NCBI GenBank assembly: GCA_914767715.1
Contig: OU612067.1
Coordinates: 18,977,001 to 19,041,000, forward strand
Reading direction: 5' to 3'
Source of the DNA: Membranipora membranacea
Taxonomy: Eukaryota > Bryozoa > Gymnolaemata > Cheilostomatida > Membraniporidae
DNA length: 64,000 bases
Shown in pieces: positions 24,263 through 64,000 of the stretch. The first letter of the stretch is position 1; each line of letters opens with the position of its first letter. The position numbers and the translations under genes were made by a program. The notes below the pieces were generated by a model. That model searched no databases and was not told the DNA's origin. It was given only the letters and a program-made list of their open reading frames with translations.

Positions 24263-26137
24263 ATGGCGGAAGTCGGAGATGGAGGTACTGCCAAAGGACG
24301 CAGGACATCAGATAAACAAATGCTTACTAAAGATGGTTTCCCTGTGACTTCTGAAAGTGAGGCATGTAAGTGGATAAAAGATACTCAAAGTGAGATTACG
24401 ATAAGTGTAATAATTGTGGTTACTTTTATCTACAACATTTTGTAGATTTGAATAGATAGTTTTCTGAGCTCAAATCTAAGCCACAGTTTTGAGTTGTCCT
24501 CTCGTCTGTATTGAAACACCATTCGCCTGTTTTTCGCTGACCAACTAATTCTTTATCACATCTTGGAACAAACAGTATGCCAGTGTATCCATGATTATGA
24601 GAGTTGTCTGTATTTGAGATTCGTATGAATTGAAGTGATCGGTTGCGCTATTTAAAGCTGCGTCTGATTGCTGTTAATATAATAAAAGCTACCCTGTAGA
24701 GTTTTAAGGTTTTTTAAGATTTGAGGAATTAATTAATTAAAACCTTTCAATTATGTTTTCTTGCAGGTTATAGGATATGGTACAGACATAGTCTGGAGCC
24801 TGAGTGTGACGAACTCGCATTGTTTTATCACAATCGATTCACCGAGATATCATTGTCAGATCTGACAGCTGAAACTGATGGCCTCGATATCACTCACATG
24901 ATCATCAGCGGTGATATCATACCTACTCTGGGTCAGATAGCTCCTGATCTGAAACATCTCAAACTAAAAGAAATACCACACCAAGACCAGCTACAGAGGT
25001 GAGCATACCTCTCGTTGGATATGGTGTGGTGTCTGTATTTGTCAGAGTGCATTTAGTGAAGTGATAGTGTGTCCAAGGAAAACTATTGTTGAGATTCTTA
25101 AATCTCCTATCATGTGTGTTTTCTTCCTATTATCAGCACTATAATGGTGTTGAGTGAAAAATTGAAATTTAATATCATGTGAAATATATTTTAGTGCAAA
25201 ACTTAAATCCCATTTTCTCGTAGGGTATTTTGATGACCGATATCAATAACCATGGTTATTCGTTATCACCAGTAGTAAGCCCATTAGTTATATGTGATAG
25301 TTATTTCCTGATCACCTCACATGTAATTTTAATATATTACAGTGTCTGTTCACTGCCAGCTCTAGAGAAGTTAGCTGTATTCGGTAATAAGCGACTACAA
25401 ACGTTACCTGATGATATAGGTATGGTTAAGACACTGAAGGTGTTAGATGTGTCTTACTGTGATCTGACTCATTTACCTACGAGGTTAGTAATTTTCTTAT
25501 GATCAGATTTATGAAAGTGAAATATTAGTGATGTTACATTATTTATGATAGATAATTTGGATAAAATGCAGGAATCTATAATAAAACAAAGTTTCATTTT
25601 ATATTAGAAGAAAATATTGATGACAGAAATTCACACTCTGGCTATCAGATCTATAATCTGTTACTGGTAGTTATCTCCTTGTATTACTTAACATATAACG
25701 TATTATGATGTATATTACAGTGTCTGTTCCTTGACAGCTCTAGAGGAGTTAGATGTATCAGGTAATAGTAGACTTCAAACGTTACCTGTTGATATAGGTA
25801 TGATGAAGTCACTAAAGGTGTTATCTGTGTCACACTGTGATCTGACTCATTTACCTTCAAGGTGAGTAATGCTCTTATGATCAGAACTATCGAAGTAATA
25901 TATAGTCAGGAAATTCACCCTCTCAGGATAGCCAGCATGGGTGTAGCTTACTTTATTCTGATTGCCAATATTGGATGCGTAAAGTCTAATGGCACTCCAA
26001 GACGAAAAGTCAATTTAAATCAAGACTACCACCAAGTCATAAAAAAGAATAAGTTCATTTACTATGATTTGATTTTGTACTAATAAACTCAACACATACA
26101 GATAAACAACGATATAATTTGATGAATAAGTAAAAGT

Positions 26138-26184
<47 letters not shown>

Positions 26185-29100
26185 GTAGTGACCACAGTAT
26201 ACCATTCTTATAACAGTCAACCACTATAAATTCCCCACATTATAAGTGGTGTTACATAATTTATGGTATTTATTAGACAGATTTTACATAATATTTGATG
26301 TGCGATTGGCAAAAATCAGTATTTACATAGCATCACAATTTTAAAAAACTATCTCCAAAGCCCAATTTGAGGATCTGTGCTGTACTTTTATACACCACAA
26401 ACGGCAATTTGGATCGAATCACACTATACAAACATAATCACCATGCCTCAATTATCCATTCAGTTAGATAAATCACCAAATTCAATAAAAGTAGATGATT
26501 GCTTCCTGATATTCATAGCTGTCTGTTAGACATAAATAATTAATTTTTCTTGCAGTATCGGTCAGCTGATCAACATAGAGAGCTTGGATATCAGTTACAA
26601 CAGGAGACTAACTACGATACCTGAGAGCTTAATCAGTATCAATGCACTACATCAACTCGAATGTGGAGGTTGTGATGGGCTAACATCTCCACCTCTGAGC
26701 GTCTGTAAACTCGGCCTTGAAGCTATGAGAGAACACTTTTTTCTGAAAGGTAAATTTATCAATCAAACTTTTGACGGGATTCATCAGCTCAAGCTTAAAA
26801 TTTTGTTTGAAAAATTGCGACAAAAATTAACGAATCATCGCTATCAATTGGTTTAAAAACTTGAAAGATTAAACTTGTGATAAAAGTAGCTTTCCAATAA
26901 CACTATTTGACAACTGATATTTGATTGGAGGGATTATCTTTATTTAATATATTAATATGTTTAGCAGTGTGGCAACCTAGTAATAATTTGTTGAAAATCG
27001 GTGAATCACCTTTTGATATAAAAAATGACAAAATAAGATAGGCTTCTTTGGAGTCGTGATCTACTCATTCAATAAAAGGTGTATCCAACAATAATCTGCC
27101 ACAAATGCGAGGAGGACTGACACTACATACACATCAAGTTTTTACAAGGACATCATAAGGTGTACTCTTGAGTTTTGGCATCTACTTGTGTTCCTCTCTT
27201 TTAGTCTGGTACAGGCATACATTGGAACCAAAGATTGACGCAATTCCATATATAGATGAGGAACAACTGACCCAGATCTCATTGTCAGAGTTGACAGCTG
27301 TCACTAAAGGGCTTGACATAACACACATGTATATCAGTGGCTATATCCCACAAAATCTACACCAGATTGCCCCTAAACTGAAACAGCTCAGACTGAATGT
27401 GATACCGAAAGAAGATCAACTAATGTGGTTGGTTTTACCATTATTATCATCACAATCAGTTTATAGAAAAAGCAGAGGCACATGTCAGTTTGGTAGTTTA
27501 GAGCATGACTTAGTCCTTGACTTGTAATTAGTCAATTGCTCATTATTCATTATTGGAGAGGTATACACCCAAGGGTGCTGGGGGATGGAACAATCAACCT
27601 TGAAAGTTCTCCAAATGGGACTCGAACCCACAACTCCTGCCGCACTAATCGCCTGGCTGTGAAAAGCAAGCGCTAACCAATTGCGCATCTCACAATCATC
27701 AAAAAATAATGGCCCCAATTAGAAAGCCTGCTATTCACTACTCAGATTTGTGTTGTCTCATCTAACAGCACATACCAAACCACTGTTGCCACCCTATGAA
27801 ACACAGCGCACTCGTTAGGGTTATTGGCCGCACATAGCTTATTGCTGGAATCCCTGAAAGTTAATTCATTACCATACCCTTACGCATGGCAGTCATATCT
27901 CAAATAATTACTCACGTATTATTTGGTATGTATATCGCTATAGTAGCTCACTGACATATCTGGAGATGTTGGATGTGTCCTGGAACAGTAAAGTAGACAC
28001 TTTACCTGACTGGATATGTCAGATAAGATCACTTAAGGAGTTATATGTTCGAGATAATGAACTCAGCAAACTACCAGACTCGTGAGTGATGCAATCAGTT
28101 TATGTATGGAATATGATGAAGAAACCAGTTTTTCCTACAATATGCTATATTTATGCCTTCACCACATTTACATGTGTGTGGTAACATTTTAATTAGCAGG
28201 TAGGTCCTAGGATAAGAAGCCATGATCACTTGTGTGCAGGCTGGTCAGCACCATAATGAAATAAAAAGTGTATAACTTGTTCTAGTGCTATCTAGACTAA
28301 TCAATATTTCCACCGTATTACAGGATTAACTCACTAAAAAACCTGGAGAAATTGGATATATCAGGCAATAACGTGGAGACATTACCTGAATGGTGAGCAC
28401 TTTTACATGTTTTTATATATATATATATATATATTTGGAGCCGATTATATATATTCACTACTAAAGATTCACCATATATGATAAGTAGTGAATCTTTGAG
28501 GCCTCTAAACTTATGATTGAATGTTTGTGACTCTCAATGTTATGAAAATAAAAGGTTTCTTGTTTTAATTTCCAATTCCGTCTGCATTAAGGGTAATATA
28601 AATCTGCGATTCCTTGTTGACCCAGAATTAGCTTAACCTTCATACTGATGATTCAGAATATTGCTTGACATTCCCTTATCAAAATTTGATGCTCCACCAA
28701 ATAGATCTAAATGACAACAAAGATTTCACCAAATTTCTGTTCCCATCGGTATATCAGCATCAGCTTGATGAAGAAGCTAGAGAAGCTAGTTGTATCTCGT
28801 AATCAGATTCAAACACTGCCTGAGGGGATAGCAGAGATGATATCACTAAAAGAGTTATCTGTATGGAGGTGTAAACTCAGAGAAATACCAGACTGGTGAG
28901 TGAATAAAGACTAGTATGAGAAGGTAGTGTGATACTAGTTTGTTCATATAGCCAGTGTTCACGTATGTTTATACTAAGTCACTATTATTTCACTTCAAAC
29001 TTCATCTGTATGAGAAAATGGTAACTGTTTGATTGTATTGTCCTGCATAGAGATATGAAATAGGAATATGTGAGCAAATTTGAATATCGTGCATATCGAC

Positions 29101-32100
29101 CAATATCGATCAATATGGGATTACATATACATATATATATATATCAGTGGCGTATATTAGCAATCACGGCCCACGGAATGCCGTGAATGGCTGAATAGCT
29201 CAGTGTGTAGAGCTACTGCCTACTTACATGCTGTAAAATTTCAAAAGTGGAGCCTTGGGCACATTACGTAAAATTCCTGCTGTCAAATGAATTTATGGTT
29301 TTTGATATATTAGCTTTCATGGTTAGGTGCAGTAATGCTTACATTCAAAGTTATGTTATTTTACTTGCAGCATTGGACAGCTGACCAATCTCATCAAACT
29401 GGATGTCCGATACAATGACAAGCTAACCAGCATTCCTGAGAGTCTGTACAGTGTTAGTACATTACAAGAAGTCCTGTGTGATGGCTGTCATACACTAACC
29501 TCTCCACCTCTGGCTGTCTGCAACCTCGGAGTTAAAGCTGTGAGAAAGTACTTATTTGATCTCCGTGTGGAACGAGGAAGTAACCAACTGCTTTTTCCTG
29601 TAACAGTAATCGGAAAGAGGAAGGCAGGTAAAACTAGCCTTGTTCAAAGTGTCCAACAGAACAAAAGAGTGCTGACACAGCGTGAATCTTCTGAAGAAGG
29701 TCTGGTTGATGCTGCCACCAAAGTATTCAAAGTATGTGAAGCTGATATAGATAAGACAACGAAACTGATATTTACTGACTTTGGGGGACACACAATGTAC
29801 CACTTTTCTTATCAGCTGACCTTCAAGACTCAGTGTGTGCCACTGCTGGTAATAGACATAGCTGAGTTTGACAGGTTGGCTGATAAGAATGGTGAGGAGT
29901 CAGCTTGTGAAGAGCTATGTCTAACATGGCTAGCTCATCTGTATATCTCATCACCAGGTCTCAACCGACCAGTAGTAGTCCTCACTCATCGTGACAAACT
30001 TAGTGATGAATGTTTCACCCGCCGAGAACAGCAACTCATTGAGGTCACTGAAAGGTTACGACAGCACATCATTGAAGCTGAGAGAAGTGTATCCCCAACA
30101 CTAAGCCCTGTTTTTACTATGACTACCTTTAATGATACCTCGGAACCCTTCATAGGACACATTGACATTCTTGATTTATCAGACACATCTGATCTGACTG
30201 ACATTAGTGACTTGAAGGATGCCCTCCTCATTGCTGGCTCAGAGCTGATCACAGAGATCCCAGGAATATGGTATCTAATGCTTATCAGAATCACTGAACG
30301 AGTTGACCAACCGTTCATTCACCTGTCAGAAATAGATAAAGAGTTTCCTGATGACAAAGAGCATGTGACCCTTCAATATCTCCACGAAACAGGATGTATC
30401 ATGTGGTTTGGGAAAATAGACAAACTTTCAAACTACATATTCCATCATTCAGAGGTTTTGACAGGTCTCATAGAAATCCTATACAGTCATACCCTAGATG
30501 ATACCTGGAGCAAACGCCTGAACCTCTTTTCTCCTTTCACCTCTGATGGGAAGAAGATAGATAAAAGGAAATACACTGCTATGATTGACAACTTCAACGC
30601 GACAGGAGTAATAGAGGCTTCTTTGCTCCTAAATCTGCTGGAAAAGGAATCTACAATCCCAGCTGATATCTCAGTAGAAATCCTGAAGACATTTTACCTC
30701 ATTCATCTATGTGGACCAACATCTGATTTAAGTCATGAGAAATACATCGTACCATATTTTGCGAAGGAAGAGATAAAAGCGCCTGAGGTCTTTGATAGTC
30801 TGATCCCACTGAAGGTAGATCTATGGCTACGAGGTCTCCCTATTCCGGGCTACGTCTTCTCCCTCATTACAGCAGCCTACCTGGACATAAACTCAGACCC
30901 CTACAACTACCCTGAGGTTGGTAAGAACGGTGTAACAGTGACCAACCACACGAACAAAAGTGTCAAATATCTTCTACATGATGCTACAGAAAAGCGTCTC
31001 TCCCTGATTACTCTCGCACCCCTGAGGAGAATCGGTGATGCATGGTGTGATCATCTCGCCTCACTCCGACAGCTCATCTCAGAACTGCGTTCAGTTTGGA
31101 AAGCAGTTCGCTATCAGAATGTCTTCGTTTGCTCCCATTGCTTACTCTCAAATAAGCCAACTCCAACTACTGCTGTCGATCCTGATTGGTTTCAGCCAGA
31201 AAACCTGGATGGAGATCTAGATGTTTGCTATACGGGAAAGGAGACTCGTGTATGCAAAGCTACAGCTGCCATCACGGAAAGTGAAACCGTTCCAACGCCA
31301 CTGATTTCTCCGTGTGAGTAATATCTCAAAGACAGCCAAACAGCTGCTCCTCTTTCCGCTCTGCAAAAACTGTTGCTAGAAATACGAACCTAATTGTCAA
31401 TAAACAACCATAAGCCCATGATGTGATCAAATGTCACTTTCTCTCTGCAACCCCGCTTCATTCCATTGTGTTTATCAGACAGTTGATTGTTAGGCATCAT
31501 TTCAATGGAGGCTTTAGATTATTTTGTTTTATCTGCAGGTTCTGACATATCTGAAACTGGATATGATGTGCTAAACGCTTACATCTCAAACCTCCGAGTT
31601 CTGTCTAGTAAGTTGTTTTACACCAATCTTTCAAGTGTAATCCGGATAATTGTAAATAATTTGGTTTGTCATATGTTACGACGACTTTGTTCTCAGAACT
31701 GTCTGTGCTGATCTTCAATTACTATCTGAATCGATGAAAATACCCATCATTGATCGAGGTGTATAATATTCATCTTTATTTTCTCATAGATGAGTCAAAG
31801 ATTCTGAAGGAGCTCATAGAGAAACATCCACTCGACACAAAGGACATCAAGCTGCTGTTTGACCACAGTGATCAGTATATAATACCACATCAGGAAACTC
31901 ATGTGAAGAGATGTGGATTAGTTCTGTTCAACTCTGACAACAGAGAGGGGGCCGCAAAAGAAGCTAATGCTATGAGTGAGAGCCTCACCAAATCTGGAAT
32001 TCAGACTAAGACAGTGGAATGGAAGCGGGACTATGATCTGTTTGCTGAAATCCATGATGAGCTGACTGGGCTGATTTCTGATGGACTATCACTGCTCATC

Positions 32101-32776
32101 GTCTCAATCATGTCACATGGTACAGCTGGAATTCTGACCGGAATCAACGACTCCAAAATAGCTATTTCTGATGTGCTGAAGACGTTAAGAGTCAAGCTAC
32201 CTAAACATATCCCTCTGGTAAGTTGTATCCCCACTGAATTTCCTAGACCAGTTTTCGGAGGCTGCATTTTTCTATAGATATTTGATCATAATATTGTGTG
32301 TTTTGCAGTTATTACGGCAAACCTTATGAAATTGATAATTAAGGAGTAAATCCTTCAATCTTTTGCAGATTCTCATAGTGCAGGCTTGTCAAGCCTATTC
32401 CGATTCGGGATCTCAGAGTCATATAGACGCTGGCCGCGCAGAACCACCTAAGTCTTATGTAGTTCTGGAGAGGCCTCATACTCTGTTACTGATGTCATCA
32501 GTTGTTGGAGGGATGGCTGTAAGAGGAGCGTTCACAGGGGCCATGGCTAGACAGTTCGCTAAGGCTAATGGGAAGATAACTATAAACGATATGGTGACTA
32601 ATGCAGTCATCGACATGAAGAAGAATGAACCAGATGAGTACAATCAGTCCCCAGAATCAAGGAACACTCTACAGAAGAGTCTGATCCTCCCACCAGGTAT
32701 AGATACACCAGATTCACAGCAACACAGTGAGGGAACATCTAAGGAAAGCCTCCTGGAGAAACTCTTAGGCAAATGA
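24263..32776 (+). CDS. LRR-Roc-COR GTPase with C-terminal caspase-like protease domain (copy A, complete)
   Basis: Thirteen exons, all GT-AG and phase-compatible: 24263-24365, 24767-24998, 25343-25483, 25721-25861, 26556-26749, 27205-27427, 27944-28081, 28324-28392, 28758-28895, 29371-31313, 31539-31607, 31790-32217, 32369-32776. They sum to 4,227 nt, giving 1,408 residues plus TGA. The ATG follows an in-frame TAG six bases upstream. Order of parts: short N-terminus, sensor-like module (35-112), LRRs, second sensor-like module (271-345), more LRRs to about 520, Roc GTPase with P-loop GKRKAGKT at 541-548, DFGGH at 596-600 and THRD at 665-668, COR domain with the typical LHETGCI turn near 797, a Cys-containing linker, then a caspase fold with SHG (His1240) and QAC (Cys1280). 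There is no kinase domain, unlike LRRK1/2 or DAPK1. A role as a GTP-switched cell-death or immune protease is inferred from domains. I know of no named gene with this layout. Confidence 0.92.
24767..25861 (+). other. First sensor-like module and LRR exons 3-4 of the Roco-caspase gene
   Basis: Exon 2 (24767-24998) encodes residues 35-112 with the pattern WYRHSLEPE, ISLSDLTA, LDITHMIISG and LGQIAPDLKHLKL. Exons 3 and 4 (25343-25483, 25721-25861) are both 141 nt, both phase 2 to phase 2, and each encodes two leucine-rich repeats of the form LEKLAVFGNKRLQTLPDDIG. They are close relatives of each other, including the AG-TGTCTGTTC acceptor context, so one arose by exon duplication. Exon sizes of 69, 138 and 141 nt (23, 46, 47 codons) across the gene equal one or two LRRs. 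Confidence 0.8.
26556..27427 (+). other. LRR cap exon 5 and second sensor-like module (exon 6)
   Basis: Exon 5 (26556-26749) ends with SPPLSVCKLGLEAMREHF, closely matching the SPPLAVCNLGVKAVRKYL that precedes the GTPase in exon 10. Exon 6 (27205-27427) repeats exon 2: VWYRHTLEP, LTQISLSELTA, LDITHMYISG, IAPKLKQLRL. The order sensor, LRRs, cap therefore occurs twice in one gene, and the first set has lost, or never had, its own Roc domain. Confidence 0.75.
27608..27692 (-). mobile_element. tRNA-derived SINE fragment
   Basis: On the minus strand the A-box-like GCGCAATTGGTTAGCGC and B-box GGTTCGAGTCC are correctly ordered, with a T-arm TGGG-TTCGAGT-CCCA. The anticodon arm and acceptor stem do not pair properly and the variable region is long, so this is not a functional tRNA gene. 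It lies in intron 6 of the Roco-caspase gene. Confidence 0.6.
29145..29275 (+). mobile_element. Truncated relative of the tRNA-containing hAT MITE, in Roco-caspase intron 9
   Basis: The stretch begins CAGTGGCGTATATTAGCA, equal to the right terminus of the element at 58486-58884 read in the opposite direction, followed by CACGGCCCACGG and the A-box region GGCTGAATAGCTCAGTGTGT. The B box and the other terminus are not recognisable. It is therefore a degraded or truncated copy, which shows the element is a repeat family. Confidence 0.7.
29371..31313 (+). other. Exon 10: last LRRs, Roc GTPase and COR domain
   Basis: A single 1,943-nt exon encodes residues 460-1108. Read in order: LRR tail with cap SPPLAVCNLG, Roc P-loop GKRKAGKTSLV, G3 DFGGH, G4-like THRD, then COR with WYLMLI near 760, LHETGCIMWFG near 797 and hydrophobic strands to about 1060, and a segment with CSHC followed by DPDWFQPENL and a further Cys pair. 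The G4 motif THRD replaces the usual (N/T)KxD, which is common in Roco proteins. No frameshift or stop interrupts it. Confidence 0.88.
31790..32776 (+). other. Caspase-like (C14) protease domain, exons 12-13
   Basis: Exon 12 (31790-32217) carries the start of the fold (RCGLVLFNSD, in place of the caspase RGxALIINN strand), a loop enriched in charged residues, and the strand LLIVSIMSHGTAG with the catalytic His1240. Exon 13 (32369-32776) begins ILIVQACQAYS with the catalytic Cys1280 in the QACxG-like position, the Gly being replaced (QACQA). It then gives a p10-like part (TLLLMSSVVGGMAVRGAFTG, INDMVTNAV) and a short polar tail. The His and Cys dyad supports activity. Substrate and cleavage specificity cannot be read. 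Confidence 0.85.
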
Positions 32777-37200: not shown

Positions 37201-40200
37201 AATGTATATTTTTTGTGCCGCGTGTAATCACTGAATTGGATTCTGCTCGAACGAATCAGCATTATCTCATAGACTAGAACATTGTAAGTCTGTTGTTGAC
37301 AGTTTGTCCCTAGCAGTCAACTATGACCCCCAAATGAAGATTTTTCATCTAATTTTGAGTCAGCTGCGCCAGAAAATATTGCAGTGTTTTCAAAATTGCA
37401 AACAAAAAAAAAAGGGTGAAGGTCAATGCTACAATGGACGTGTGACTTTACCAAGTCCTTGAGTCTGTCAAAAGAACATATACTGTCCCAGATAAGGGAT
37501 CAGCAAGTGTAGTATTCATTACATAGACGCAGAGTGTTTGATCTTACAAGCAGTGAGTATGAACACTCACAGAACGAATGCACGCACACACAGAACATGC
37601 ATACACACAAAACGTACACACACACATCCAGAATGTATGTAAACACACGCACAGAATGTACATACATACGGACGGAACATACACCCACAGAACATACACA
37701 CACACAGAACATACACACACACAGAACACCCTTACACACAGAACATACACACACACAGAACATACACACACACAGAACATACACACACACAGAACGTACT
37801 TACACACAGAACATACACACACACAGAACATACACACATACAGAACGTATGTACAAACAGAACATGCACATACAAAACGTACATACGCACCGAACATACA
37901 CACAAAACGTACTTACACATAGAACTTACACACACACACACACCGAATGTACACACAGAACGTACACACACAGAACGTACACACCCAGAACGTACACACA
38001 CACAGAACGTACGCACCCAGAATGTACATACACACACACAGAACATACACACACAGAACATACACACACACAGAGCGTACACACACACAGAGCGTACTAT
38101 CACAGAACTTACATACACAGAATGTACTTACACACAGAGCATACACACACAGAGAGCGTACACACACACAGAACGTACACACACAGAGAACGTACTCAAA
38201 CACAGAGCGTACTCACACAGAACGTAAATACACAGAATGTACTTACACACACTGAATGTACACACACAGGACAGACACACACAGAACATACTCACACAGA
38301 ACGTACACACACACAGAACGTACGTACACACACCAACTGACCTGCAGTAGATGAAGTATCTGATTGTCCAGCGCTGACAGTCTGTGGACTTTTCTCTGAT
38401 TGTACTAAACTCTGTACTCCTACACTCTGATCAGTTACTGAAAAAGTATGGTGTGTGTGAACAGGACGACTAAACCACGACGGAATGAAGCTTAGCAAGA
38501 GTATGAAAAATCAATGAAAAAGTGAAAAATGAATCGAAACCATAGTTTGATTTCAGTGAATAATCATTTGAGAACCAAAAAAACATGACCATATTTTACC
38601 TTAGATCAAGTTTGATCCATTTTGCCAGCATTGGAGTTGCCCCCCCCCCCTCTACTGACACGCCACAGGGCAACTCCAATGCAGGCAAAATGGATCAAAA
38701 TATTATTCACCTCACTTCATGAACCAACGAGTAAATAATTCAAGTCAAGTTTCAACTTACGACTACTGGCTTAGGTAAGTATCACTTAACTGGGGTAATT
38801 TTACCTTGGGTTAGTTCTCCTGCTCGGCTGGGTGTGGAGCTCTGTTCTGATAGCTGTGACATACTGTGACCTTGACCTGGTTTCTCACCTTGACCTTCAC
38901 AATGACTGGACACATTATCATCACTGCTTATAGTCTGTAGTATGTCTTCTATGTTCTGAATGGTTTGGGAGTTTTCAGTTTCTGTTGATGAAGAGATCTC
39001 AGCTCTTGGTGTTTTAGACTGGTTTGAACCTTAAATAGACAAGGATACTAACCATGGAGCAGATCAAATCATGAGTTGATAGTTTTATTTGGATGCGTAA
39101 AGGGCCAGAACGCAAAACTTTATCATGTTGCGTAATCAACACTCCAGTTGTGGAAAGCCACATAATCCTGAAACTAAGAGGTCAGTATCAATCGTTAATA
39201 ACCCTCAAAGCGTTTTGGTGTAGATTGCCATTTTCACTGTCGACATCAGCATCAAGTTGTTTTGATCAAAATATTTCCCGGAATTTTGATTTCTACTAGT
39301 AGAGATCAAAATTGCAGGAAATATTTTGAACTTGAATTTTACATTGATGTATGCTATAGAGTGATATTCTTGTACAAAATAGACAACAGCTATACACTCA
39401 TCAGTAGCAGAAAAAATATAATTCATTCTACCCTCACCACTGCTCTGATCCGCTGCAGATTGCCTCTCATCAGATGATGGCGTCTCCCCAGCCTCTGCGG
39501 AAGGGGAGGTAAACTCTTCAGCTACATGCTCAGGTACAGATACAGGTACTCCTCTCCACTGGTGACTGATGTGTCGCATCTGTCGTGTCAGAGTGTCACC
39601 ACTAGGTGTCGACTCCTGACTGTCGGTACTATAGGAAGGAGCCGCCGCAGGAACAACAAAGTCATCTAAATGGGATATAAGCAGAGTCGTGAAAGTTCTG
39701 TACTTTGTTAACATTCACGGTAATGTTTTGGCTGGGAGGACTTAATTTTTGTATTATGTATTATTTTGCATTATATTATCTTTTGTCCAACATACTAGAA
39801 TCAAGCTCACACCATACTATTTTGTATATTCCCAATAGTTTGGTGCTTACAAAGCTCACATGATGATGAAAAGGGTAAAATTGTTTAACCAGACCTGCTG
39901 AATCTGAAGAGTAGAGATCTAGTATAGTAGGGCTCTGCTGATTGGCAATCAATCCCTGTGATGTCATACCTCCGTCAAGTGTCGTCAACTTTTCCTGTTC
40001 CAGAAATCTGTGAATGGGAGCAAAGTAATAACCACTTAGAGATAGTGGCGATGAAGGCTTCAGTGTTGGATTGATGGTAACAGCAAAAAAAGGATCAAAG
40101 GTACTCAAGTAGTGAGTAGGCTTTATTTTTCCTCCAATTATCTGAGATAGATGTACTGGAGTTAAAACAGGAAAAAATCATTAGAAATGGAAATAACACA

Positions 40201-43200
40201 CAATTGATTAGAATTTAATAAAGTTTGACGCACAAAATCATTCGAACACAACCTTAACGCCACACCGCATGCAGCACTCACTTTTGTCTATCTGCTCTCC
40301 TAGATTCGAGCTGCTGCAGTAACTGATTTAGAACTCTGATTCTCTCCCCATCTGGACTATTAGCTTCTACATCCGCTCCTGTATGCTCAACATCACCAGG
40401 GGTGGATATGATAGGGGCAGCACTTGTCATGAGAGTGGTGAAGCCGGATAAAGGAGGAGTTGGGGAATCTGATGATGTCACTGATTGTACCTGGTTACAG
40501 TGAATATAAACAAAAATAAAATTGAGCATCTTAATCGATGAAGTGCAATCAAATAAACATGGCCACCCTGCAGTAGCACATGTTGTTGTCACATGGGCGC
40601 ATAAAACAAAAAACAACCACATGACAAGGCTAATACTACAGTATATGAGGGAATTATACACTGAGAGCCAATTATGACAAATTGACCTCAATGACATAGC
40701 GCTCGAAGGATGTTGAATTTTGGGATTGAAGACAAAAAACATATGTTGATATTCGGAATAGTCGCGATTTAAATTATACAGCCCCTCCATTAATTAGATA
40801 TTATGTCTCATATTGGAATAAACACAATGTTTTAATTCATTACCTTTGATGAAGCTCGCTGTGGATCACAATCATCAGCGCTTGTTGATGTGCTAGATAA
40901 GTGGGTATCACTATTAGGCTGAGGACCCCTGATTGGCTGATGGTAATAGTGTTGATCTGTGATTGGCTCATTTGCAAAGTCTGTGATTGTGATTGGTGGA
41001 ACATCAACAGATGAGAGAGAAATTGAGCTCTGCTCAGCCAGAGATCTGCCAAAAAAAGTTCTGCAATATATTGAGTTATGGTTCCCTTGCTAAGCCTGGT
41101 TCTAAAATTTTCAAATTGGTCTAAATTCGCATGTAAAGAGTCAAAATTAAAGTAATCGTCAAAGCACTTAGCATACCTGCTATATTCCTTTCCTCTTGCG
41201 TTGGAATTCATGTTCATACTTGGGTACAAAGTCTCATCAAACGTGGTGATGTGAGTAGGCGTGTCCACTTCCTGTATCACACTGAGCTCATGGAGGTCAA
41301 GGTCATCCACTCCAGCCTTGGCTGTCACTGGTGGCCGTAGTGGTGTATCTCCTAAGACAAAAATGGAATAAAAGCTTATTTTGCAGCTAGTTCCATAGGA
41401 GCCAAAGTGTTTGTACTGATTGGCTGCTGGGAGGGAGAGAGCCAATCCGAGGTCCGAAGGTAATTTTCTGAAAATATTAGTCTAATAATACATTTATTGA
41501 ATGTGAAAGTAATTTTTTTTCACTTTTACAATCGCATCTCAGTAGGTACTTGCAGTGACCTGGCTTAGCATTGAAAACTTAGCAATATGTATTCAAAACG
41601 AACAATATGGTGTTGTTCAGGATGCTGCCTACATGATCACCATGTAATATCCCCTTCATTACATGGAAGAAATATTTACATCCGCTCAAATGGTAGAGTA
41701 CTGACATTGAAGATAATGAATGTGATATTCTGAGATAGTTTATAATTGGACTCACTACTTGGAGTACTTTGTCCTGACTGCTCCTCATCTAACTCTATAC
41801 ACAGACTATGTAGCGTATGTCTCAGACTATTCTGTGTATCGAGTAATTCTGTCTGAGATGTCGAGGGAGACAATAACTTCCTTTTCTGGTCCTGAATATC
41901 AGCCAGCTGTCGCCTCAGCTCTTCCTGTCTCCTTAAACAACAAACAGCCAGTTGTAGGAAAAGAAAAATCTCAACACAATATTCTCTGATAAGTAGAGTC
42001 AACAACTTAGATAGGGAGTCAACTTAGAAAGTCTACAATATGTTAGAAAGAGAGCTTGGACATGCAAGTCTTATATTATATGGACTGACTAACAAGCTGG
42101 AACTACATACCATCATGAGCATACAGAACCAGGATAGGGTCACTAACTTGTTAAATTCTTGTTGTTTAGCCATCATCTGCTGATGAAGTGGAGACCATTC
42201 AGAATCTATTTCATCCTGAGGTACAGAAGCACTAGACTGAGGAACTGCAGAAGTAGGCTCGGTTAGATGTATGCCGCTCCTAACTGGTGAGGTGTCAGAT
42301 GGACCAGAGGCTAAGGCTTCTGCCCAAGTCAATCCGCTTCCAGCAGACTTTGCGCTATGATAAAAAGAAAGGCTAACAATAAAATCACGTGTTCAGCAAT
42401 GTTACTCTATACAGTAAAGCTACTCGTGATTAGCCATGTTATTTTATAGTGGTCTGAGAAAAGGGCACTAAACCTAAGAAACAGTTGAGGAATTCGGTAT
42501 TTTTATCAGATTCAGATCCATCTTGCCAAAAAAAAACCATCAACATTTTGTAACAAAGACCATTGTGAAAAGCAGAACTCTGAATTGTGAACAAAGTTCT
42601 AGAAACAGCATCACTGCTTAACTAGAGTGCTCAAAGTCTGCTGTGGTTGACATCTGGATGCCACAGCTAGCAATCCACGCTAAGTTCTAGCACTAAAACT
42701 ACTGGATAACACAGGATTGTAGGAAAATTGACTGCAGGACACACAGACATTAAAATTCAACTTACTCTGTTTCTTTAGCAATGAATCTCCTTGTGACAGC
42801 GTGAAGTAATCTCTCTCTTTCATCTATAGACATGTAGGTAGGTTTTGATTGGCTGGAGGCTGATGATCGTGCTGGCTGAGCTTCTTGGGGATGGATATCA
42901 GACCTCGATTGATTATCAGCATTGTTGGAGATGTTCGGTCGGACAAAACGATCCAATTTTACAGACGACATCATATCCTGTAATCTTTCTAACCTTCTAG
43001 AATGTTCCTGTAGCTCTGATTGTAGCGCTGATGGCTCCTTAGGACCTATGAGTAGAGATATAACCCGGTCATAATCACATTATCAGGAGGCTAGACTCTC
43101 TCATTTTTAGGGCAGAAGGTAATGTTTATCATTACATCTTGCAGGGCAGCTCAAATTATAATATTAATGTTTTATTTTATAATTATTATCAAAAATTAGT

Positions 43201-62721: not shown

Positions 62722-64000
62722 ATGGCGGAAGTCGGAGATGGAGGTACTGCCAAAGGACGCAGGACATCAGATAAACAAATGCTGACTAAAGATGGTTTCC
62801 CTGTGACTTCTGAAAGTGAGGCATGTAAGTGGATAAAAGATACTTAAAGTGAGATCACTATAAGTGTAATAATTGTGGTTACTTTTATCTGCAACATTTT
62901 GTAGATTTAAAGACTTACAAGATTAGCGATCAAAAGACAGTTTTCTGAGCTTCTGAGAAATTTAAGCCGCTCTTTAGAGTTGTCTTCCCGTCTGTCTTGA
63001 AACACCATTATTTTGCCTGATTCTCGCTCACATACAAAATCTTTATCACAACTGGGAAAACATGCAATTATGGGCAAATTATATACTTACCTTGACTTGT
63101 CTTAAGTGGGGGAAGGGTAGTGCTATGAGACTGTATTTTCTGGGATATTGACAGCTACAGACAATTTTTGCCTATTAATTAAACACATCCTTGATGTCAG
63201 TAGGGTCAGCATGTTCCAAACAGTATGCCAGTGTATTCATGATTATGAGAGTTGTCTGTATTTGAGATTCGTATGAATTGAAGCGATCGCTTGCGCTATT
63301 TAAAGCTGCTCCTGATTGCTGTTAATATAATAAAAGCTACCCTGTAGAGTTTTAAGGTTTTTTGAGACTTGAGGAAATAATTAATTTTAGCCTTTCACTT
63401 ATGTTTTTTTGCAGGTTATAGAATATGGTATAAACATAGTTTGGAGCCAGAGTGCACTGACTTGCTGATTAATGACCCTCATCTAACCCAGATATCACTG
63501 TCAGATCTGACAGCTGCTATTGATGGCCTCGATATCACTCACATGATGATCAGCGGTGATATCCCACCTACTCTTGGTCAGATAGCTCCTGATCTGAAAC
63601 AACTCAGACTAAGGCTAATACAACACCAAGATCAGCTACAGAGGTGAGCCTACCTTTTGTGGGATATGGTATGGTGTGTCTGTATCTGATTTGTGTGAGT
63701 GCATTTAGTGAAGCGATAGTATGTCCAAGGAAAACTATTGTTGAGATTCTTAAATCTCCTATCATGTGAGTTGTCTTCCTATTATCAGCACTATAATGGT
63801 GTTGAGTGAAAAATTGAAATTTAATATCATGTGAAATTTATTTCAGTGCAAAACTTAGATCCCATTTTCTCGTAGGGTGTTTTGATGACCGATATCAATA
63901 ACCATGGCTATTCGTTATCACCAGCAGTAAGCCCATTAGTTATATGTGATAGTTATTTCCTGATCACCTCACATGTAATTTTTAATATATTACAGTGTCT
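62722..64000 (+). CDS. LRR-Roc-COR-caspase gene, copy B (5' end only)
   Basis: Second copy of the gene at 24263-32776, cut by the window end. Exon 1 is 62722-62824 (103 nt, start MAEVGDGGTAKGRR), exon 2 is 63415-63643 (229 nt) and exon 3 begins at 63996. Exon 1 encodes the same peptide as copy A. Exon 2 is one codon shorter and clearly changed between the WY(R/K)HSLEPEC start and the ISLSDLTA block: copy A reads DELALFYHNRFTE where copy B reads TDLLINDPHLTQ. The bordering intron ends are still easy to align. The downstream LRR, Roc, COR and caspase exons would lie to the right and cannot be assessed. The function is inferred from copy A. Confidence 0.85.

Follow-up and report, generated by a model that had tools for sequence, protein, structure and literature searches.

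A tandemly repeated bryozoan gene predicted to join leucine-rich repeats, a Roc-COR switch and a caspase-like domain

Introduction

Membranipora membranacea, the sea mat, is a colonial marine bryozoan, and we know of no recognition genes from its phylum. In NLR receptors and inflammasomes a sensor and a nucleotide switch are coupled to a caspase output. Could an animal hold all three in one polypeptide? The question is raised by a stretch of 64,000 nucleotides of M. membranacea chromosome 3 (assembly GCA_914767715.1, contig OU612067.1, positions 18,977,001 to 19,041,000), here called the window and numbered from its first letter, where a gene fusing leucine-rich repeats (LRRs), a Roc GTPase, a COR domain and a caspase had been proposed. 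The analysis described here suggests that this gene quite probably encodes a cytosolic LRR-Roc-COR-caspase recognition receptor, belonging to a tandem, diversifying family of cheilostome bryozoans.

Results

A single frame with four domain types

On the plus strand, at 24263-32776, thirteen GT-AG exons join into one open, spliceable frame of 1,408 codons, containing LRRs, Roc, COR and a caspase domain (Table 1), as the original prediction had it. The Roc G domain carries its P-loop, DxGG and THxD motifs. The caspase domain is recognized by the Pfam C14 profile with 41.4 bits against a cut-off of 21.4. The profile search suggested with the prediction thus recovered the caspase, but gave no significant match to COR in the window protein (COR-B, E 0.17); COR is recognized by fold instead, since LRRK1/2 and the Chlorobium Roco align through a COR lying directly after Roc. 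PF16095 (COR) is carried by two relatives, P0033 and P0037, from the bryozoan Watersipora subatra. Neither a kinase nor a NACHT or NB-ARC domain is found among the 14 Pfam families detected in the window protein at E up to 1.

The gene is the third, copy C, of six intact copies (A-F) on the same strand of chromosome 3, starting at -66026, -26887, 24263, 62722, 112486 and 165949 in window coordinates. The array contains at least six copies, as its ends lie beyond the DNA covered. Predicted proteins range from 1,408 to 2,515 residues, and all six copies resemble one another in exons 1, 2 and 10-13. A random joining of exons is ruled out by this shared arrangement. The spacing from one start to the next is 38-53 kb, and between copies the listed direct-repeat blocks, each at least 600 bp long, are about 91-99% identical. 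Copies C and F are 99.74% identical over exons 10-13, introns included, versus 97.62% upstream of exon 1, a difference that points to the switch-protease end having undergone gene conversion recently.

One gene or two across intron 10

Retention of intron 10 leads to an immediate stop (TGT GAG TAA, 31321), and the locus might accordingly be read as two neighbouring genes, or two transcripts: an LRR-Roc-COR protein ending there, directly after the donor, and a small caspase starting from the ATG at 31505. Some features weigh on that side, and against a single product. The in-frame ATG upstream of exon 11 is kept in all six chromosome 3 copies, making a separate caspase transcript possible, an AATAAA lies within intron 10 in four of them, and in W. 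subatra C14 is found in 10 of the 23 family clusters, leaving 13 without a C14 call; two of these 13, P0014 and P0023, are cut short inside the caspase or immediately ahead of it.

Copies B and E, however, have no AATAAA, while the consensus donor and acceptor of intron 10 are kept in all six copies. NCBI models of W. subatra join the same domains in one protein, and in them the residues following 'PC' align with exon 11. Of 14 environmental relatives, two end at the shared PC codon and the other 12 continue with E or K, the residues that a GTGAG or GTAAG donor would produce. Elsewhere in the M. membranacea genome a caspase lies just downstream of Roc-COR, on the same strand, at all seven further loci examined, and the junction donor could be located by pattern at five of these seven chromosome 10 and chromosome 4 loci; two of the nine COR matches, L001 and L003 (contig C11), gave no match to exon 10 and fell outside this check. 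Every one of the 13 loci examined, spread over three chromosomes, therefore has Roc-COR and caspase together, a conservation that is difficult to account for unless they form one product, and separate genes or transcripts appear very improbable. The proposal of one fused protein finds good support in the sequence and, through a relative, in a predicted fold.

LRR cassettes and their variation

Following exon 2, the sensor of each copy is an array of exons of exactly 141 bp, each encoding two LRRs and in phase 2 at both ends. Detected by pattern (141 bp, AG/GT, no stop, start motif), these cassettes number 2 in copy C, 10 in A, 11 in D, 19 in E, 22 in F and 31 in B, 95 in total; gaps in the arrays of B, D and F suggest that diverged cassettes were probably missed. 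Practically all of them differ, 91 being distinct in DNA and 90 in protein. For 53 of the 95 the nearest cassette is found only in another gene, and blocks of cassettes are repeated, such as B2-B3/B4-B5 and F10-F11/F13-F14.

Variation sits on one face of the repeats. The ten x positions of xxLxLxx, which we take by convention as the concave LRR face, have an entropy of 1.57 bits versus 0.31 elsewhere, a value reached by none of 100,000 random position sets; without framework and filter columns the figures are 1.57 versus 0.40, and none of 20,000 sets reaches the former. Amino-acid change is in excess at the same positions, as in a diversifying LRR receptor: the ratio of amino-acid-changing to silent differences (pN/pS) is 1.78 on the concave face versus 0.37 elsewhere for the 91 distinct cassettes (4,095 pairs), 2.47 versus 0.34 for the 604 pairs with at most 12 differences, and 2.24 versus 0.28 for the 117 pairs with at most 8, ratios which carry no P value because cassette pairs are not independent. 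Switch and caspase are constrained, with pooled pN/pS of 0.36 for exon 10 (Roc-COR) and 0.49 for exons 11-13 (caspase); the value for exons 1-2 is 0.60.

The LRRs of W. subatra are likewise arranged in units of 47 residues (24+23). Among 25 distinct units, the xxLxLxx positions have 2.19 versus 1.35 bits, reached by 96 of 20,000 random sets, and in two subgroups the observed value is reached by 848 and by none of 20,000; the former is a weak result, and a point against the receptor reading. This test excludes the Leu columns fixed by the search pattern, whose inclusion favoured the result (12, 160 and 0 of 20,000).

A variable binding face, in a tandem array whose members exchange sequence and in a colonial host, would also suit the same molecule in a role other than pathogen defence, namely self/non-self recognition by the colony, or the clearing of degenerating zooids. 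By eye, no predictor having been run, no transmembrane or signal stretch was noted in the predicted N-terminus, so that recognition by contact would need an intracellular step, and we regard such a role as rather unlikely. Similarly doubtful is the idea of a combinatorial receptor locus, in which up to 31 in-frame LRR exons per gene would be alternatively spliced and reshuffled between genes, yielding a somatic or colony-specific repertoire of binding faces wired to a caspase.

Is the caspase domain a protease?

SHG and QAC are present in all six chromosome 3 copies, as are the His, the Cys and both Arg residues that align with W. subatra P0001; the Arg of NREG in exon 12 is presumably the S1 pocket residue. 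A caspase fold is predicted for P0001, and the topology called for by the original prediction therefore holds for this relative, whereas the assignment of the window's own domain is based on its sequence.

Several observations speak against an active protease on chromosome 3. The pentapeptide is QACQA in all six copies instead of QACxG, leaving protease activity uncertain; for this reason we term the domain caspase-like in fold, rather than a proven caspase. GAFT stands where W. subatra reads GSWF, the first loop of p20 is shortened, and a PDB sequence search returned no match for the window's caspase, whereas that of W. subatra hit CED-3 and human caspases. The caspase of copy D is the least constrained, with pairwise dN/dS (the corresponding ratio of substitution rates) of 0.62-2.03. 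The protein might thus be fused as described, its caspase domain being a pseudoprotease that acts as scaffold, decoy or regulator of active caspases, in the manner of cFLIP. We hold this to be unlikely, if worth keeping in mind: the putative catalytic and Arg residues are intact in every copy, the pooled caspase pN/pS is well below one, and QACAG or QACSG occurs in six of the seven chromosome 10 and chromosome 4 relatives, as QACSG does in P0001.

Relatives and age of the fusion

In a protein search that scored only the 7,989 candidates with the most words in common, and whose list was filled with unrelated LRR proteins, the hits above 700 bits were W. subatra and ENA/lgn records only. Many of the W. 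subatra relatives are labelled 'MFHAS1 homolog' by NCBI. In a FastTree analysis of Roc-COR, the chromosome 3 genes group with M. membranacea chromosome 10 and one environmental sequence, W. subatra falls among other environmental sequences, and the chromosome 4 gene stands apart. Since the fusion occurs in both species, it most likely arose before they diverged, the families having expanded separately afterwards.

At one chromosome 10 locus (L035, 22.19 Mb) two caspase-like stretches lie downstream of a single Roc-COR exon; one is of the chromosome 3 type (QACQH), and the other more nearly resembles that of W. subatra. In W. subatra P0001, P0003, P0005, P0006, P0009-P0011, P0022, P0023, P0030 and P0032 the linker between COR and caspase contains an acidic motif, SDSELSDTL or SDLSDVE, that was not seen in the window protein and might serve for phosphorylation or self-cleavage.

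Other features of the gene and its surroundings

Exons 5-9 of the window gene (26556-28895) resemble a second sensor module derived from intragenic duplication, present in copies C, E and F and not in A, B and D, where a query with exon 5 matches only exon 10. A stretch related to the WYRH sequence of exon 2 occurs in W. subatra P0009 and P0011. The N-termini of these two proteins, MGAKSSKD and MGCSLSRR, look like lipid-attachment (myristoyl or palmitoyl) signals; copy C begins with MAEVGDGG. Between COR-B and the caspase (31129-31260), alignments of 35 sequences from the window and its relatives feature an invariant CxxC and another Cys, which look like a small metal-binding knuckle.

Within the 38-53 kb repeat unit (34000-62000 in the window, also found between other copies) lie minus-strand open reading frames, such as 42036-42392 and 41679-42023, which are repeated at 747-1103 and 390-734. 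They may represent another gene duplicated along with the first, whole or in fragments; of these frames, five from the intergenic part matched no Pfam family over cut-off. Simple-repeat-like DNA at 37513-38337, with HTHRTYTHTE open in several frames, is probably not a gene.

Table 1. Features of the window gene (copy C) and start of the following copy
Feature	Position	Strand	Description
Exon 1	24263-24365	+	Contains start codon; no domain recognised in this N-terminal part; 98-99% identical in DNA to the other five tandem copies
Exon 2	24767-24998	+	'WYRH' N-terminal module preceding the LRRs
LRR cassette 1	25343-25483	+	141 bp, phase 2-2, two LRRs
LRR cassette 2	25721-25861	+	141 bp, phase 2-2
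Exon 5	26556-26749	+	Final LRR of first sensor module; present in copies E and F too
Exon 6	27205-27427	+	Second WYRH module, intragenic duplicate of exon 2; in copies C, E and F
Exons 7-9	27944-28081, 28324-28392, 28758-28895	+	LRRs of second module
Exon 10	29371-31313	+	Last LRR, Roc GTPase, COR-A, COR-B, Cys-containing tail
Roc GTPase (approximate)	29594-30121	+	P-loop GKRKAGKT 29612-29635, DFGGH from 29777, THRD from 29984
COR-A and COR-B (approximate)	30197-31150	+	Positions taken from fold model
Intron 10, Roc-COR/caspase junction	31314-31538	+	Donor GTGAGT; AATAAA 31399; in-frame ATG 31505 upstream of exon 11
Exon 11	31539-31607	+	Linker
Exon 12	31790-32217	+	Caspase p20 part; Arg in NREG; catalytic His in SHG (32116-32118)
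Exon 13	32369-32776	+	Catalytic Cys in QACQA (32387-32389), p10-like part, stop
Copy D start	62722-64000	+	Exon 1 62722-62824, exon 2 63415-63643, first LRR cassette from 63996; runs past window end

Discussion

How might such a protein work? The LRR array would bind a non-self or danger ligand and binding would shift the nucleotide state of Roc, upon which two or more chains would be joined through COR. Their caspase domains could then pair and become active by proximity, in the fashion of initiator caspases, which are activated when brought together, and by cleaving their targets they may set off cell death or inflammation. New specificities would arise as in-frame 141-bp LRR exons are duplicated, lost and exchanged, the Roc-COR-caspase end being kept more uniform. 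The immune or cell-death role originally proposed is strengthened, at the level of sequence, by the tandem array, the hypervariable cassettes and the excess amino-acid change on the binding face; the departure of the chromosome 3 caspases from QACxG counts against it.

The scheme shares with NLRs and inflammasomes the logic of sensor, nucleotide switch and caspase output, but the switch is a Roc GTPase, no NACHT or NB-ARC being found, and the protease is part of the same chain. Roco proteins are described as dimers via COR, cycling with nucleotide state, in a review (PMC6337361), which distinguishes LRR-RocCOR, kinase and DAPK groups and whose main text nowhere contains the word caspase. Roco group 1 (bacterial Roco and human MFHAS1/MASL1) has the same order of LRR, Roc and COR, and the predicted fold of the bryozoan protein matches Chlorobium Roco and LRRK1/2; the bryozoan protein, however, adds a caspase domain after COR, and differs from the LRRK1/LRRK2 and DAPK groups in the lack of a detected kinase.

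Partial forerunners are already in print. Amphioxus LRR-caspase and TNFR-caspase hybrids (PMC2575513) fuse a recognition domain straight to a caspase, but keep QACXG, and no word beginning with 'roc' or 'gtpase' appears in that text; Aplysia LRR/TIR proteins with ROC-COR (PMC9334734) join a lophotrochozoan Roc-COR to an immune signalling domain, which is TIR instead of caspase. Brown algal ROCO genes, proposed as immune receptors, likewise have phase-2 LRR exons, free to duplicate and swap, yet these are 72-bp exons with one LRR, and LRR-ROC-COR is the sole architecture there (PMC11378527), compared with 141-bp exons of two LRRs and a protease end in an animal. The Roc-COR-caspase combination was not found in a search of open-licence full texts, judged mostly from listings, nor in passages of PMC8195603, PMC7159879, PMC7836458 and PMC11686985. 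What is new here is an LRR part made of an array of 141-bp phase-2 exon cassettes, 2-31 per gene. Brown algal ROCO genes and the bryozoan genes both use phase-2 LRR exon cassettes, which suggests that receptor diversity has been reached by this route more than once.

Should this reading of the chain be correct, a single polypeptide switched by a Roc-COR GTPase has, in an animal, taken the place of the multi-protein inflammasome. Since the output would be a protease reaction, it would offer a clean system in which to study the effect of Roc-COR dimerisation, a question still open for LRRK2. For bryozoans, the family would also provide specific candidates for the genes by which pathogens, or self and non-self, are recognized.
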